From Lishizhenia tianjinensis (GTDB taxonomy: Bacteria; Bacteroidota; Bacteroidia; Flavobacteriales_D; Crocinitomicaceae), in assembly GCF_900116425.1 (NCBI RefSeq), contig NZ_FPAS01000001.1:620001-684000 (forward strand): a stretch of DNA of 64,000 nt, written 5' to 3'. The notes below the pieces were generated by a model. That model was given only the letters and a program-made list of their open reading frames with translations, was not told the DNA's origin and searched no databases. Both the position numbers and the translations under genes were made by a program. Of this stretch, positions 4,152 through 55,030 are shown in pieces. Every line of letters starts with the position of its first letter. The first letter of the stretch is position 1.

Positions 4152-5030
4152 ATGAAAAAAATAATCACCTTAATCGCCCTTATGGGTGCTACAGTATTTA
4201 CACACGCTCAAGTTGAGAAGAATAAGAAAGACGCAAGCATTAGCTTTCATCCCTCTTTTCAAAACAATAAAACCTATACCTACTCTATAAAGTCGTTACG
4301 TATCCTTCCCTCAGATACGGGTATGGATACAAGTCGAGCGGAACACCAAGTGAACTTGACAATACTCGAGAACAATGACAGTCTTTTACAATACTCTGTA
4401 TCTTTTGATGAGAATTATACTAACCTAGCAACGAGTGTTTATGCTAAAACACCACCTATTCTTCAATACAATTACAACACGAAGAAAACAAAACTGTTAA
4501 ACGATAGCATTTTGCAACAAAGCTACTTTGCCATGTTTGATTCTTTAGGTTTACCCAAAGATAAATACGCGCAAGCTGAGGAAAATGTGAGAGAAGACAT
4601 TGTAAAAACAATGAAACAAAGCTCTAGATTAATGGGCATTTATGTTACAGACTACCCTTATCTTGCTCCTAAAGTCGACACGACACAAAAAAAGGATATG
4701 TTCGGCAATGTTAGTCCACAAATTACTTCAGAATGGGTTGTTAAGAATGGTAAAAACTACCTTTTTCAATACAAAAGACATTTGGAATCAACAACAGATA
4801 TGAACCAAGTTTTCACACAAGCTGCACAAGAACAATTTGGTGATAGTGTAAAAATTCTATCTACAACAATAGAAGATAAGGCGGTTGACAAACCAACATC
4901 ATTTAAAAGTGTAGATGTACTTTTCAGTAAAAAAGGAATCATGACCAGTTACATCAGTGAAAGTCAGCAAAGCTTCTTAGGGCAACTCGTCCTTAGCCGC
5001 AAAGAATACACATTAATCGAAGAAAAATAG
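4152..5030 (+). CDS. Hypothetical secreted protein
   Basis: 292 aa with a standard signal peptide (MKKIITLIALMGATVFTHA, then Q). The mature part begins with a Lys/Asn-rich stretch, then a long domain with repeated strand-like segments (QVNLTILENNDSLLQYSVSF, later TTIEDKAVDKPTSFKSVDVL). It has the general look of periplasmic or surface DUF6263-type proteins of Bacteroidota, but that link is weak. No lipobox and no T9SS tail, so probably periplasmic. It has its own 5' spacer of 54 bp. Function unknown. Confidence 0.55.
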   Translation: MKKIITLIALMGATVFTHAQVEKNKKDASISFHPSFQNNKTYTYSIKSLRILPSDTGMDTSRAEHQVNLTILENNDSLLQYSVSFDENYTNLATSVYAKTPPILQYNYNTKKTKLLNDSILQQSYFAMFDSLGLPKDKYAQAEENVREDIVKTMKQSSRLMGIYVTDYPYLAPKVDTTQKKDMFGNVSPQITSEWVVKNGKNYLFQYKRHLESTTDMNQVFTQAAQEQFGDSVKILSTTIEDKAVDKPTSFKSVDVLFSKKGIMTSYISESQQSFLGQLVLSRKEYTLIEEK

Positions 5031-5075
5031 TTAAACACAAAGCGAATAACTTAAGCAATATTTTATACTCACAAC

Positions 5076-5453
5076 ATGAAAAAATTAAACTTTCTCCTAC
5101 TCTCTCTCCTAAGTCTTGTCCTTTTTAGTTGCTCAGGGTCTGACACTTTTCAAGGCACATGGAAATGTATGAATGGCCTCGAAGAAAAGTTTGAAATCAA
5201 CTTTACGCCAGACCATGTAACAGTTGTACAAGATGGTAAAACACTCGTGGATAGTGATTACAGTCAATACGCATACAGCAATCAAAATGGTATTATCAGC
5301 TATACGATTCAAGGTGATAACATTGGTGCTTGGATCGTACACTTTCCATACGAAGACAACAAGAAAAAAGGTTTAATCTTGGATGGTGAGCAACAAGTAA
5401 TTTGTACCATCTCCAAAGAAGATTACCAAAAAATTGAACAGATCGTTGACTAG
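5076..5453 (+). CDS. Small lipoprotein, possibly lipocalin-like
   Basis: 125 aa with a type II signal peptide: a hydrophobic N-terminus ending in the lipobox LFSC, lipidated Cys at residue 19. The mature protein starts SGSDTFQGTWKCMNG; the GTW near the start followed by short strands is typical of small lipocalin-like (YceI/DUF-type) beta domains of about 100 residues. This fold call is inference. No charged retention or LES-type export signal is obvious after the Cys. It lies in a run of secreted orphan proteins on the same strand. Confidence 0.55.
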   Translation: MKKLNFLLLSLLSLVLFSCSGSDTFQGTWKCMNGLEEKFEINFTPDHVTVVQDGKTLVDSDYSQYAYSNQNGIISYTIQGDNIGAWIVHFPYEDNKKKGLILDGEQQVICTISKEDYQKIEQIVD

Positions 5454-5491
5454 TTTAAAGTAACTTAGCGTCATAAATTCGTTAAAAGGAT

Positions 5492-6127
5492 ATGTTGAAA
5501 ATTCTACTTTTCCATATCCTTTTTTTGATGGCAATAACTCCCGTACATGCCAAACACAGGCCTATCTTCATAAAGGAACTACTTCATGAGACCGAAGAAC
5601 TTGCAGAAGTTGTTATTCTAGATTATACCCTTACGTTCGACACCCTCTTTCACGCAGAACCCTTGCAGGTGCACCGCAGGATAAAGTCAATCCGCTATAC
5701 TTACATCCACCAACCCGATTCCATCTTAAGTTATACAGCACCCAAGACTTGTAAATATGGTTGGCAATTTTATGGTCACCAAGATAGCACAAGCACCAAA
5801 AACCAACACCATCAAGGATTTTGGCCTAGTGTAAATGATACTGTACTCGTCTTTTTTGACCAAGAAGGTGTAATTAGTTTAATGGGACGAAAAACAAAGC
5901 AAAATAATTTCCAATTGTGGTCACCCTATCAAAACCTATCAGGGATTACTATCTTTTTTGGTATAGCTCCTTTCCAACAAGATAACTCTGCACAGATTAA
6001 CGATAGATTTCTACAAATTTTACAAAATCGTGCGGAGAAAGAGGGCTATGAATTTGCCAGTGTTTTTTATCTAAACATTGCCATCGAAGAGCTCGAAAAA
6101 TTAATACTTGTGCATCGCAAACCATAA
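5492..6127 (+). CDS. Hypothetical secreted protein
   Basis: 211 aa, starting at an ATG at 5492 with a signal peptide (MLKILLFHILFLMAITPVHA, then KHR). The mature region is rich in His, Gln and aromatic residues and contains a segment around NDTVLVFFDQEGVISLMG. No catalytic signature or known domain recognised. It is predicted to be exported, with no membrane segments after the signal peptide. Adjacent genes on either side are also unrecognised exported proteins, separated by 38 and 77 bp. Confidence 0.5.
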   Translation: MLKILLFHILFLMAITPVHAKHRPIFIKELLHETEELAEVVILDYTLTFDTLFHAEPLQVHRRIKSIRYTYIHQPDSILSYTAPKTCKYGWQFYGHQDSTSTKNQHHQGFWPSVNDTVLVFFDQEGVISLMGRKTKQNNFQLWSPYQNLSGITIFFGIAPFQQDNSAQINDRFLQILQNRAEKEGYEFASVFYLNIAIEELEKLILVHRKP

Positions 6128-48854: not shown

Positions 48855-51062
48855 CTAAATCTTTTGTCCTTTAATACGCAAACTATTCAATACTACAGAA
48901 ATAGAACTAAAGGCCATGGCTGCACCCGCCAACATTGGATCTAGCAAGAATCCATTGATAGGATACAGTACACCTGCTGCGATAGGAATACCGATTAAAT
49001 TGTAGATAAAGGCCCAAAAGAGGTTTTGTCGTATACCCTTTACCGTTAAATGAGAAATTGCAAAGGCTTTGTTGAGTAATTTTAAATCAGAACCGATAAG
49101 GGTGATTTGCGCCACATCTATGGCTACATCAGAACCTTGTCCCATGGCTATACTTACATCTGCTTGCGCCAAAGCCTCCGTATCATTAATACCATCACCT
49201 ATCATGGCTACCGTTTTACCTTGTGTTTGTAGGTCTTTCGCCAATGCTGCCTTGTCTTGCGGAAGCACGCCTCCTTTAAAATGAGTAAGTCCAAGTTCTT
49301 TAGCAACTACAGCAGTTGTAGCTTGACTATCTCCACTCATCATATAGATATCAATTCCAGAAGCTTTTAAATCGTCAAGTACAGATTTAGCACCTTCCTT
49401 TATTTCATCTCGAATTCCAATTAATGCTAAAACACCCGCCTTATTGGCAAAAGCCACCAAAGTTTTGGCTTCACCTTGCCAATTTTCCGCTTCATCTAAT
49501 TGATGTTGCGGAAGAGGAATAGCAAGTTCTTTCATCAAAGCAATACTACCAATGAAATATTCCACACCTTCCTCATCCTTTGCTTTAACTCCTTTACCTT
49601 TAAGTGTATCGAAGGATTTTAATTCATCACTGCTCTTTATACCTTCGTCTTTAAGACGTTGAACAATGGCATGCGCCAAAGGATGTTCTGATTTCTCTTC
49701 AATTTCTAATAAGATAGGATTTAACACTTCAGTTTTCGCATCCTTGCTCCAAAGGATATCTGTAACTACGGGTTTTCCTTCCGTAACCGTTCCTGTTTTA
49801 TCAATGATAATGGCATTCACCTTGTGCGCCAATTCTAAGCTTTCCGCATTTTTAATGAGGATATTGTTCTCTGCTCCTTTACCCATCCCAACCATTATGG
49901 CTGTTGGTGTGGCCAATCCAAGGGCACATGGACAGGCAATAACCATCACGGCTATGGCATTCATGGTGGCATGGAAGACCTTATCTTCACCTCCCCACAA
50001 CATCCAAGCCCCAAAGGTCAATAAAGCGATACCAAAAACTGTTGGAACGAAAACACTGGCAATCTTATCGGCTAACTTTTGAACAGGAGCTTTACTTCCT
50101 TGCGCTTCCTTTACACGTTCTATCACTTGGGCAAGAAAAGTATCCTTCCCTACTTTGGCTGCCTTCATTTTAAAACTACCATTTTGGTTGATAGAACCTG
50201 TAAATACCTGATCATCCTTTTGCTTGAATTCAGCTACAGGCTCACCGGTAATCATACTTTCATCTACATAAGAATCACCGCTAATTATCTCTCCATCCAC
50301 AGGAATTTTATCTCCGGGCTTCACCAAAACAACATCGTGAACCGCAACTTTATCTATGCTTATGGTTTGAACTTCACCCCAGCGCTCAACTTGCACTTCC
50401 TTGGGTTGTAATCCGATGAGTTTCTTTAAGGATGCACTGGTTTTTGATTTGGCTCTTTCTTCGAGTAAATCACCTATGGAAATAAAAGTGATGATAACCG
50501 TAGCTGCCTCGAAGTAGACGTGAGACATCAACCCTTGTTCCATCCAAAATTGCGGATAAAAAGTATTGAAAGTACTGATTAGAAAAGCGATACCTGTACT
50601 CATGGCCACCAAAGAATCCATGTTGACTTGTCCGTGCTTGGCTTGTTTAAACGCATTGACAAAAAAGTGTTTACCAAAAACAAACAAAACTGGAATACTT
50701 AAAACAAAGGAGATATATTCCCCGGGCTTCCAATCCATAAAAAACATGGATAGTGCAAAGACAGGGAGTGTAAACACTCCTGCCCAAATGGTATTCTTTA
50801 ATTTCTTTTGATACGCCTCACCTTTCCGCTCCTCCTCGTCTTCATCTTCTATCAACAAAGTATAACCTGCCTCACTCACTGCATCGCGCAAACTTTCTTT
50901 GTTTACATCGGCTTCGCACTCTATAGTTACGGAGTTATCTGCAAAGTTTACGGCAGCATGAATTACTCCCTCTTGATTGTTCAAGGCTTTTTCAACGTGG
51001 TTGGCACAACTCGCACAACTCATTCCTTCTACTGGAAATGTATTTTTAATTGTTTTTGACAT
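48855..51062 (-). CDS. copA: Copper-exporting P1B-type ATPase
   Basis: 735 aa with one N-terminal HMA domain (GMSCASCANHVEKAL; Cys16 and Cys19), eight membrane segments, actuator TGEP (272-275), the CPC metal site in ACPCALGLATPTA (377-379), phosphorylation site DKTGTVTEGKP (Asp421), an HP motif in EEKSEHPLAHAIV and hinge GDGINDTEALAQADV. The CPC and the late YN/MxxSS-type residues fit Cu(I) export from the cytosol. It lies about 90 bp downstream of an HMA-AraC regulator gene in the same direction, without an obvious terminator between. Confidence 0.94.
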   Translation of the reverse strand: MSKTIKNTFPVEGMSCASCANHVEKALNNQEGVIHAAVNFADNSVTIECEADVNKESLRDAVSEAGYTLLIEDEDEEERKGEAYQKKLKNTIWAGVFTLPVFALSMFFMDWKPGEYISFVLSIPVLFVFGKHFFVNAFKQAKHGQVNMDSLVAMSTGIAFLISTFNTFYPQFWMEQGLMSHVYFEAATVIITFISIGDLLEERAKSKTSASLKKLIGLQPKEVQVERWGEVQTISIDKVAVHDVVLVKPGDKIPVDGEIISGDSYVDESMITGEPVAEFKQKDDQVFTGSINQNGSFKMKAAKVGKDTFLAQVIERVKEAQGSKAPVQKLADKIASVFVPTVFGIALLTFGAWMLWGGEDKVFHATMNAIAVMVIACPCALGLATPTAIMVGMGKGAENNILIKNAESLELAHKVNAIIIDKTGTVTEGKPVVTDILWSKDAKTEVLNPILLEIEEKSEHPLAHAIVQRLKDEGIKSSDELKSFDTLKGKGVKAKDEEGVEYFIGSIALMKELAIPLPQHQLDEAENWQGEAKTLVAFANKAGVLALIGIRDEIKEGAKSVLDDLKASGIDIYMMSGDSQATTAVVAKELGLTHFKGGVLPQDKAALAKDLQTQGKTVAMIGDGINDTEALAQADVSIAMGQGSDVAIDVAQITLIGSDLKLLNKAFAISHLTVKGIRQNLFWAFIYNLIGIPIAAGVLYPINGFLLDPMLAGAAMAFSSISVVLNSLRIKGQKI

Positions 51063-51155: not shown

Positions 51156-51725
51156 CTAGAGTTGATCTATACTCAAACGCTTTTTTTCCTCGCTTTTCTT
51201 AAAGGCACTCGGAGTTTGTCCGGTTACTTTTTTAAACTGACTCGAAAGATAAGCCGCCGAGCTATAATTCATTTGAAAGGCAATTTCAGAAAGACTCATT
51301 TCATCGTAACTCAATAATTCTTTCACCTTTTCTATCTTTTGTTTGAGTATGAACTGTTCTATGGTCTCTCCTTCTTCTTTTGAAAAGAGTTTACTTAAAT
51401 AGGTGTATTCGTGATGTGTTTGCTCACTGAGGAAGGCTGAAAAATTAACCGTTAAAGGTTCTTTGGTATGATGTACTTGTTGTACCACAAGAGATTTTAT
51501 CTGCGTTACCAAATCATTTTGCACACTTTCACTGCGCTCAAAACCCAAGCCCTCTAATCCTTCGTCTAGTTTTATGAGTTCTTCTCTTGTTGGATCTTTT
51601 GATAGTTTTAGTCTTCCCAACTCTACATCTTCCACCTGTAGTTCCAAATCTTCGCATAAAGATTTAACAGCCGCTATACATCGCGGGCAGACCATATTTT
51701 TAATAATGATTTGTTTCGTATTCAT
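51156..51725 (-). CDS. AraC-family regulator with N-terminal HMA-like domain
   Basis: 189 aa. Residues 1-75 look like a heavy-metal-associated ferredoxin-like fold (MNTKQIIIKNMVCPRCIAAV) with the Cys pair CPRC at 13-16 instead of MXCXXC; the C-terminal 85 residues are an AraC HTH (LSEIAFQMNYSSAAYLSSQF, then KKVTGQTPSAFKK). The combination suggests direct metal sensing and control of the adjacent copA. The fusion occurs in Bacteroidota but I know no experimental work on it. An imperfect inverted repeat, TACCT-N6-AGGTA at 51725-51740, touches its start codon and could be an autoregulatory site. Confidence 0.82.
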   Translation of the reverse strand: MNTKQIIIKNMVCPRCIAAVKSLCEDLELQVEDVELGRLKLSKDPTREELIKLDEGLEGLGFERSESVQNDLVTQIKSLVVQQVHHTKEPLTVNFSAFLSEQTHHEYTYLSKLFSKEEGETIEQFILKQKIEKVKELLSYDEMSLSEIAFQMNYSSAAYLSSQFKKVTGQTPSAFKKSEEKKRLSIDQL

Positions 51726-52924: not shown

Positions 52925-53121
52925 CAATTAAGCTCCATCATCTGTATTTCTTCCTAAAATTCCCTTATATTCAAATTAAGTTGACAGCTTAAGCTTAGTT
53001 TTTTCGTCAGAGTTTAGACAACTAGCTTATGAACATTTTGATGTTAACTATTAAAAAGAATTATCTCTATAAAAAAATGGCAACCTAATAAAAGGTAGGT
53101 CGTTAAGCAAGTGTATAAACG

Positions 53122-53688
53122 GTGGAAAAGGAACAATTAAAAAAAATAATTGATGGTTGCGTAGCGGGAAATCGATACGACCAAGAGCAACTATTCAAGA
53201 TGTTTTATGGTAAGATGTTGGCCGTATGTATGCGCTATACGAATGATAAAGACAGTGCTCAAGAGGTACTTCAAGAAGCATTTATTAAAATATTCGACAA
53301 GCTTAAAGATTTTGATTTTAAAGGATCTTTTGAAGGTTGGGTACGAAGAATCATGGTAAATGCATCGATAGACGCAACGCGTAGGTTAAAACGTCAACCC
53401 TTTAGAACAGATGAAACTTACCTATTTGTAAGTAACGAGGAAGATGAAAATGAAACAGATTTACAAGAACTTAAATCTATTAAAGCGGAAATGGCCTTAG
53501 AAGCAATTCAAGACCTCTCACCGGCTTACAGGACAGTTTTTAACCTTTACGCCATTGAGAATTACACGCACAAAGAAATAGCTGAGTTACTTGATATAAG
53601 TGAAGGAACTTCAAAATCTAACTATTCTAAAGCAAAACAAAACTTGAAAAAAATATTAGAACGCAAATTTGTCAAACTACACGAATGA
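53122..53688 (+). CDS. ECF-family RNA polymerase sigma factor
   Basis: 188 aa from a GTG start at 53122; no in-frame ATG lies nearby. Region 2 is visible as QLFKMFYGKMLAVCMRYTND, then KDSAQEVLQEAFIKIFDKLK and FEGWVRRIMVNASIDATRR (regions 2.1-2.4). Region 4 is EAIQDLSPAYRTVFNLYAIE, then HKEIAELLDISEGTSKSNYS. There is no region 3, as expected for ECF sigma factors. The stop overlaps the ATG of the membrane anti-sigma-like gene by 4 bp, the classic ECF/anti-sigma pairing. It diverges from mdh. Confidence 0.93.
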   Translation: MEKEQLKKIIDGCVAGNRYDQEQLFKMFYGKMLAVCMRYTNDKDSAQEVLQEAFIKIFDKLKDFDFKGSFEGWVRRIMVNASIDATRRLKRQPFRTDETYLFVSNEEDENETDLQELKSIKAEMALEAIQDLSPAYRTVFNLYAIENYTHKEIAELLDISEGTSKSNYSKAKQNLKKILERKFVKLHE

Positions 53689-54980
53689 AAGACAATTTAG
53701 AAAACATATTAAAGGACAAACTCGAAAATTTTGAGTTGCCTTACGAAGCATCCGCTTGGTCGCAAATGCAAGCCAAGTTAGATGCAAAAGCTAGTCCTAC
53801 CACATCACGTTGGTATTGGTTTGGAGGAGCTGCAGTAATTGCAATTTTAAGTTCCTTGTTGGTTATGACCTGGGATACCCATCCTGAAGCGCAACAACAA
53901 CGTTCAGAAGTAGAGGTTTCATCTCCTATTGAAGAACAACCTGACAATGTGCTACCAACTCCTCAAAACGACGAAACCAATTTGGTGAGTGAGGAAAAGG
54001 AAGTTAACCAAAACGAAGTGGTTATTGAATACGCTCCAGAAAAGGAAGTAGCAACAGAAAAACGCAAAGAAACGACAAAGGTGGAAAGCGAAAAGCCTCA
54101 GGCAACACCTATTACTTCGGTGATGAAGCAAAGTGAAGAAAACAAACTCGTAGAACAACCTGTCATAGATCTTCAACCTGAAAAGGATGTGAATGAATTG
54201 GTATACACTACAGGAATTATAGGTTCTACCTTGCTTTGTTATAACGACGAACTTGTTATCAGAAATAACAGTTTAAATCATAAAGTAAGAGCGCGTGTTA
54301 ACGGTAAAACGTTTGAGTTAATGCACAATGAACAAGCGAAAATCTCAAATATTACCGCTGCTACACAAGTAGAATACTTAAATGCGAAAAATGAAGTAAT
54401 TGGTGTAGAGTATATTTCTTTACACGAAAAACCAAATCTTTTCTTTAGAGCAGAAGCCAATTTGTTTAATGAGCGCAACGGATTACCTGTGATACAGATC
54501 TCAAATACAAATGAAGTTTATACTGGTCAATGGTATTTAGATGGAAAGCCAACTTCTTTAAATGAAAATGACGAAATCTATTGTTATACAAAAGGTGCGC
54601 ACACCTTAAACTATGAAGTAAGTGATATGAACGGGTGTACGTATACAGAACAAAAAACTGTAACGGTAGACAAGGATTTCAATTTAATGGCAAACAATGC
54701 GCTAAACCCAGAGAGTATAATTCCAGAAAACAGAACCTTCTTACCTGAAAGTTTAACACGTATGAATGTTCCTTTCACCTTTAGGGTTATAGATCCAAGT
54801 AACGGAGGAGTAATGTATGAAACTAACGATGTTACGCAACCTTGGGATGGAATAGACATTAGAACTGGACAACTTGCGAAATACAACCAAACTTTCATTT
54901 GGCAGGTAAGTTTAGAAAAGAGCATAGAGAATGCACCAAAAACATATAGAGGAGATGTAGTTCTTGTACAGAAACGCTAA
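53685..54980 (+). CDS. Putative membrane anti-sigma factor with periplasmic type B sorting-domain-like tail
   Basis: 431 aa. Residues 1-42 are cytosolic (LENFELPYEASAWSQMQAKL), a start common to Bacteroidota anti-sigma proteins; TM helix about 43-62; a Glu/Pro-rich spacer 63-170; one or two Ig/PKD-like domains about 175-330 (STLLCYNDELVIRNNS; GQWYLDGKPTSLNENDEIYC). Residues 351-431 read like the gliding-motility (T9SS type B) C-terminal domain: FTFRVIDPSNGGVMYETND, QPWDGIDIRTGQL, then YRGDVVLVQKR. Because a TM helix precedes it and there is no signal peptide, the tail stays in the periplasm. Coupled to the sigma gene by a 4-bp overlap. The anti-sigma role is inferred from context. Confidence 0.75.
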   Translation: MKDNLENILKDKLENFELPYEASAWSQMQAKLDAKASPTTSRWYWFGGAAVIAILSSLLVMTWDTHPEAQQQRSEVEVSSPIEEQPDNVLPTPQNDETNLVSEEKEVNQNEVVIEYAPEKEVATEKRKETTKVESEKPQATPITSVMKQSEENKLVEQPVIDLQPEKDVNELVYTTGIIGSTLLCYNDELVIRNNSLNHKVRARVNGKTFELMHNEQAKISNITAATQVEYLNAKNEVIGVEYISLHEKPNLFFRAEANLFNERNGLPVIQISNTNEVYTGQWYLDGKPTSLNENDEIYCYTKGAHTLNYEVSDMNGCTYTEQKTVTVDKDFNLMANNALNPESIIPENRTFLPESLTRMNVPFTFRVIDPSNGGVMYETNDVTQPWDGIDIRTGQLAKYNQTFIWQVSLEKSIENAPKTYRGDVVLVQKR

Positions 54981-55003: not shown

Positions 55004-55030
55004 AAGGCTACCTTAAGGTAGCCTTTTTTG
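55004..55030 (+). terminator. Terminator of sigma/anti-sigma operon
   Basis: AAGGCTACC (55004-55012) pairs with GGTAGCCTT (55017-55025) and a T run follows, 24 bases after the stop. Confidence 0.9.

Follow-up and report, generated by a model that had tools for sequence, protein, structure and literature searches.

An ECF sigma factor operon of Lishizhenia tianjinensis whose putative membrane anti-sigma partner ends in a degenerate T9SS type B domain

FlgM, the anti-sigma factor of the flagellum, is a soluble protein that is itself exported. For the very large surface proteins of Bacteroidota, we know of no way in which production is matched to T9SS export, and the open-licence papers searched contained neither an account of such matching nor a report of an anti-sigma factor with a CHU_C tail.

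Several described systems come close in one respect or another. The Dma anti-sigmas of Bacteroidota are paired with ECF sigma factors, have domains that reach from the cytosol to the outer membrane, end in a beta-barrel, and target NigD or polysaccharide loci (PMC13088901). PorXY-SigP of Porphyromonas gingivalis is a T9SS-linked system in which the ECF sigma SigP drives machinery genes and is affected by a CTD protein, PorA, a secreted surface protein that acts via PorX/PorY (PMC7712824). In F. psychrophilum, the motif SM6 is an ECF-type promoter with a CGT -10 box that is common to T9SS genes (gldN, porU, and others) and to an ECF sigma/anti-sigma pair (PMC9723704). The RsgI anti-sigmas of the Gram-positive Clostridium thermocellum sense extracellular substrates, and their outer domain resembles domains of the proteins they regulate (PMC12203970). 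On the side of the cargo, PorP/SprF shuttles are known binding partners of type B tails (PMC9143113; PMC12618676), and mutating any one of five conserved motifs in the type B tail of F. johnsoniae SprB abolished its secretion (PMC12618676).

The sigma–partner operon and its domain architecture

The window, a stretch of 64,000 nucleotides from contig NZ_FPAS01000001.1 of L. tianjinensis, holds a conserved two-gene operon that consists of an ECF sigma factor gene and a gene for a single-pass membrane protein. Genes were called as simple ORFs throughout, and the genomes compared are related to each other. The features of the operon are as follows:

53079..53104, + strand: ECF-type promoter GGCAACC-N15-CGTT of the operon (predicted autoregulation; motif in 28/28 orthologs)
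53122..53688, + strand: ECF sigma factor gene, 188 aa, GTG start (Sigma70_r2, Sigma70_r4_2, TIGR02937)
53685..54980, + strand: putative membrane anti-sigma gene, an ORF of 431 aa (sigma-linked in 28/28 loci)
53685..53804, + strand: predicted cytosolic head, residues 1-40, two helices (model; head relatives across Bacteroidota)
53814..53870, + strand: predicted transmembrane helix, about residues 44-62 (hydrophobic stretch; helix 50-62 in the model)
53871..54197, + strand: disordered Glu/Pro-rich linker, residues 63-171 (pLDDT mostly below 50)
54198..54428, + strand: predicted first Ig-like domain, residues about 172-248 (model)
54429..54677, + strand: PKD-like domain, residues about 249-331 (PKD_4 matches of orthologs; VIA-align)
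54678..54977, + strand: degenerate T9SS type B (CHU_C) domain, residues about 332-431 (hhalign; PF13585 matches of orthologs)
55004..55025, + strand: intrinsic-terminator-like hairpin that closes the operon

The 188-aa product matches TIGR02937 (sigma70-ECF) with an E-value of 2.7e-29, and Sigma70_r2 and Sigma70_r4_2 are also above cut-off. Its gene shares 4 bp (ATGA) with that of the partner, both being on the + strand, an overlap from which the sequence-only reading had proposed a sigma/anti-sigma-like unit. That proposal is borne out by the gene order in relatives: 30 loci were fetched, and an ECF sigma gene lies immediately 5' of the partner in all 28 that include the upstream flank, with gaps of -11 to +35 bp. 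All 28 upstream genes match a sigma profile, which was built from a subset of the same 28. In most orthologs (L001-L030), as at 53122 in the window, the sigma gene starts with GTG about 14-20 nt 3' of the promoter CGT, a spacing that implies very little leader sequence and may mean weak translation.

The partner as a query gave matches with E < 0.001 in 97/99 related genomes, many of the lower-ranked ones being only tails of large secreted proteins. No relative was found when the single partner protein was searched against genome contigs, and a small alignment of partners as query gave 17 named loci. The named relatives belong to Crocinitomicaceae and include Brumimicrobium, Fluviicola, and Lishizhenia. 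Elsewhere in the window, the gene at 51156-51725 (- strand) seems, judging by its sequence, to encode a fusion of an HMA-type metal-binding domain with an AraC-type HTH, and a gene for a copper-type P-ATPase (48855-51062) adjoins it.

In gene order and architecture, the 431-aa partner has the marks of a membrane anti-sigma factor and is putatively assigned as one. Its predicted structure has head helices at residues 3-14 and 22-35 and, C-terminal to the linker, three beta domains of Ig-like type, all confident in the model; the domain order read earlier from the sequence (short head, one transmembrane helix, long spacer, Ig-like domains) is the one seen there. PKD_4 is matched by 13/25 orthologs (best 3.8e-10), and alignment of the PKD-like domain with PKD chain 4l9d by VIA-align gave a Z of 7.5 and an rmsd of 2.4 over 73 residues. 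An outer-membrane beta-barrel is absent from the C-terminus, where the model and hhalign place the three Ig-like domains with the CHU_C-like one last. Whole-model comparison with Foldseek and VIA-align was rejected as a means of identification, being non-discriminating: it returned Ig-like arrays, such as the grappling-hook protein GhpA and the C-terminus of PorU (VIA-align Z 6.7, rmsd 14.7 over 148 residues). Two cysteines, C185 (54237-54239) in the first and C318 (54636-54638) in the second Ig-like domain, are invariant in 25 aligned orthologs, and a disulfide or redox sensing is possible.

Homology of the tail and relatives of the head

The likeness of the tail to the type B sorting domain had been noticed by eye, and a comparison of profiles agrees with it, although at the level of the ortholog group and not of the window protein. 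The window protein alone found nothing significant in Pfam, NCBIfam, and PDB sequence searches, with no match to PF13585 or TIGR04131 over cut-off, whereas PF13585 is matched by 12/25 orthologs (best 1.4e-4) and TIGR04131 by 4/25. Aligned by hhalign with the 17 CHU_C cargo domains of the own genome, the ortholog tails gave 98.9% and an E-value of 3.4e-16 from end to end, in a single comparison. Given this end-to-end alignment and the ortholog matches, the resemblance is one of homology, and the partner tail is, by these comparisons, homologous to the T9SS type B (CHU_C) domain. Specific mimicry of the regulated cargo by the tail was also tested and is not supported, the tail profile scoring regulated and other own-genome cargo similarly.

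The cargo motif [ND]R[WYH]G separates the two kinds of protein. It is found in 17/17 own-genome cargo domains (two of them read off the hhalign alignment) and in 18/20 cargo entries of the regulon described below (of the two without it, one is truncated where the fetched sequence stops), which is 35/37 cargo entries vs 0/43 sigma-linked tails. The FTPNGDGxND loop is also lost in family 1, the family of the window protein. [ND]R[WYH]G presumably corresponds to one of the motifs A-E of type B tails. Because the cargo motifs are lost, and because motif mutations in SprB stop its secretion (PMC12618676), the anti-sigma tails are probably not export signals; the predicted transmembrane anchor and the lost motifs together argue against export of the partner. 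[ND]R[WYH]G may serve as a sequence mark that distinguishes exported from anchored CHU_C domains, and the tailed proteins may carry an annotation as secreted T9SS cargo though they are probably membrane regulators.

The head has relatives far beyond the family of the partner. In a sample of 296 Bacteroidota genomes, matches to the head alone occur in proteins of about 230-560 aa, and all 12 relatives that were fetched follow an ECF sigma. Judged by C-terminal sequence, 10 of the 12 look barrel-ended and two are short; the six that were scanned among the barrel-looking ten all match an outer-membrane beta-barrel model, one over the cut-off and five below it. Since the same head occurs with a barrel, a short tail, or a CHU_C end, the periplasmic end appears to be exchangeable, and the pair suggests a single anti-sigma family in which a barrel or a sorting-like domain can occupy this position. 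The architecture of the barrel-ended relatives matches that of the Dma anti-sigmas (PMC13088901). The partner is likely a Dma-like anti-sigma in which the barrel has been replaced by a pseudo-sorting domain and which controls type B cargo genes.

The connection to T9SS suggested earlier was followed through sprA, which is present in the own genome and in 97/99 relatives, the two without it (G015 and G096) being fragmented assemblies. Presence of the gene is uninformative on its own in this order, where it is near-universal. In the 296-genome sample, full-length tailed proteins occur only in the own genome (G000), G021, and G067, all with sprA, in line with the suggested connection. Three members of the class without sprA (G100, G326, and G334) match the family-1 profile, and the two of these matches that were read have no CHU_C tail, one being short (L304) and the other barrel-like (L298).

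The promoter motif, its predicted regulon, and a second tailed pair

GCAAC-N16-CGT[TC] stands upstream of the sigma gene in 28/28 ortholog loci, so the window sigma probably transcribes its own operon, and from this conserved position, we infer that it uses a GCAAC-N16-CGT motif. A wrong-spacer control has 54 sites in 59 genomes, a number clearly exceeded by the stricter form GGCAACC-N15-CGTY, and 22/29 fetched sites of the real motif are intergenic vs 0/30 for the control. When one mismatch was allowed in the own genome, 4/30 matches were intergenic and 26/30 intragenic; as such matches are mostly intragenic chance, only intergenic sites were used. Of the four, one precedes the sigma gene, one precedes a 155-aa secreted protein followed by a 1029-aa CHU_C cargo protein, one belongs to the adjacent 1222-aa CHU_C cargo protein, and one is probably chance. 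The predicted target cluster lies as follows:

G000:C8:641489-649071 (L281:3490-11072): 155-aa secreted protein and 1029- and 1222-aa CHU_C cargo, with two promoter near-matches upstream

Both cargo proteins of this cluster have a PKD domain before the CHU_C domain, as the partner does. The 155-aa secreted protein is without a Pfam family and is related to small motif-linked proteins in other genera (L163 and L170).

In the 59 genomes, the other intergenic sites of the motif often precede operons for secreted proteins. A CHU_C protein follows directly at 9/48 intergenic non-sigma sites that have a gene (binomial P 6e-9 against an assumed base rate of 1.2%, that is, 38 CHU_C matches in about 3200 genes, the sites being in related genomes and not independent). 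Within the operon, a CHU_C protein is found at 17/48 sites, often with a small secreted protein (115-180 aa) ahead of it; several of the 48 run off the fetched stretch, and the one that was completed (L175/L237) is CHU_C. Several candidates of the regulon are not T9SS cargo; some are small secreted proteins, and one, seen in other families, is a DUF5684 membrane protein. On these sites, the predicted regulon of the window sigma appears to consist of T9SS type B cargo and not of machinery. The switch seems to activate genes for tagged proteins, and the cell may in this way match their production to its ability to export them.

Two further observations concern the motif. A membrane protein of about 145-180 aa stands behind it in several families of the order (L239, L242, L247, L254, L255, L190, and L194), and the one of these that was scanned is DUF5684. 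L249 (G069:C67) has the motif 149 nt upstream of a protein (QDPHFSHINNSEWYFNPAMV) that looks like a PorP/SprF-like shuttle, a likeness taken from its sequence only.

The own genome encodes a second pair of this kind. One of its PF13585 matches is a 361-aa protein that has the same architecture as the partner and directly follows another ECF sigma:

G000:C7:87936-89547 (L068:3937-5548), - strand: family-2 pair, an ECF sigma and a transmembrane protein with a CHU_C tail

The genes for the 361-aa protein (L068:3937-5022) and its sigma (5012-5548) overlap by 11 bp, the tail passes PF13585 with 52.8 bits vs a cut-off of 27, and the two sigma factors are 45% identical. ECF sigmas also precede the family-2 orthologs, and [ND]R[WYH]G is lost in both tailed families. 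The promoter of the family-2 sigma differs and reads TGCAACC-N17-GTCTTT; 11 of 30 fetched sites of this motif are intergenic, three of them before sigma-2 genes and most others before secreted proteins, and one site (L316) coincides by coordinates with a CHU_C cargo of G011 (G011:C33). The gene downstream of the pair (L068:1483-3834) encodes a large protein with a C-terminal transmembrane helix and an RRKRRRK end.

A candidate mechanism, its rivals, and comparison with known systems

A sigma factor that would drive type B cargo, together with an anti-sigma that has a cargo-like tail, points to this tail as a reporter of type B export. With the gene arrangement, the domain order, the homology of tail and head, the conservation of the promoter, and the motif sites before cargo operons as the starting point, we infer that the tail senses the occupancy of T9SS or of its shuttle. 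The preferred reading, to which we give somewhat less than an even chance, is an autoregulated ECF sigma with an anti-sigma whose PKD-CHU_C tail reports type B export and frees the sigma when capacity is free. The cytosolic head would hold the sigma factor, the single helix would anchor the partner in the inner membrane, and the linker of about 110 residues would cross the periplasm and present the PKD-CHU_C unit, which would be a degenerate version of the C-terminus of type B cargo. The sigma would transcribe its own operon and a few giant type B cargo operons, often headed by a small secreted protein. The tail would compete with genuine cargo tails for contact with a PorP/SprF-like shuttle or with the SprA translocon; since PorP/SprF shuttles bind type B tails, such competition is the simplest form of contact, and the loss of the cargo motifs means that the tail may no longer be recognised by either. 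Free export capacity would then release the sigma, possibly by regulated proteolysis or a conformational change, and cargo that backs up would keep it held. This sign is favoured because the predicted targets are cargo and not machinery or repair genes. A degenerate cargo tag on an anti-sigma with tagged cargo as its predicted targets is a direct and testable candidate for how production could be matched to T9SS export.

The PKD-CHU_C end could instead have been recruited as an Ig-like module that binds an unrelated ligand or senses the state of the envelope without contact to T9SS, the sigma still controlling genes for surface proteins. The loss of the cargo motifs in both families and the exchangeable end, which elsewhere is a beta-barrel or a short tail on the same head, fit such a sensor. 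Both sigma-linked families of the order nevertheless keep the CHU_C end, type B cargo lies behind sites of each of the two promoters, and the full-length tailed form in the 296-genome sample is confined to genomes with sprA, so that we regard this sensor as unlikely, though deserving some weight.

A tether in the manner of Dma is a quite improbable explanation, in which an outer-membrane PorP/SprF-like barrel would bind the tail as a substitute for the missing barrel, and the anti-sigma would span both membranes and respond to the spacing of the envelope or to a signal at the surface, not to secretion load. Outer-membrane barrels at the end of the head relatives, type B tails that stay bound to PorP-like barrels (PMC9143113), and a linker of about 110 residues that could reach the outer membrane speak for it, whereas the tail is without the motifs that the SprB tail needs for secretion (PMC12618676). 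The contact of the tail with the outer membrane would be conjectural, and it is difficult to envisage how the translocon could export the tail of a protein that stays anchored in the inner membrane.

The sequence-only reading also allowed the opposite sign, in which backed-up machinery engages the tail and the sigma is released when secretion is blocked; many ECF systems answer envelope stress, but the predicted targets would supply more cargo, not export machinery, proteases, or chaperones, and would worsen the block, which makes this reading highly improbable.

Coming back to the preferred reading of a tail that reports free export capacity, the window pair shares with Dma the class of Bacteroidota ECF sigma/anti-sigma systems with domains from the cytosol toward the outer membrane, and its head relatives end in an outer-membrane beta-barrel, a likeness of architecture and not one drawn from Dma sequences. 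The window partner differs from Dma in its PKD-CHU_C end, and its sigma in predicted targets that are T9SS type B cargo. The type B sorting domain of SprB-like cargo (PF13585 and TIGR04131) is homologous to the partner tail and, in the two target cargo proteins as in the partner, is preceded by PKD, but the copy of the partner sits on an inner-membrane protein without [ND]R[WYH]G and, in family 1, without the FTPNGDGxND loop.

In contrast to PorA, the partner is a candidate anti-sigma that shares an operon with its own sigma, and unlike SigP and SM6, with their machinery and other T9SS targets, the window sigma is predicted to act on cargo; SM6 is likened to the window system by its promoter, not by anti-sigma sequence. 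RsgI resembles the partner in that the outer domain is like those of the regulated proteins, with no homology claimed. FlgM, for which none is claimed either, shares the principle that late substrates are controlled by an anti-sigma monitoring the state of a secretion machine, but it is exported and soluble, whereas the window partner is membrane-anchored with a degenerate tag. More tentatively than the reading above, the pair may be seen as a FlgM-like checkpoint of T9SS in which a non-exportable pseudo-cargo tail reads free type B export sites and matches cargo transcription to capacity, with two such switches in the own genome that differ in promoter specificity.
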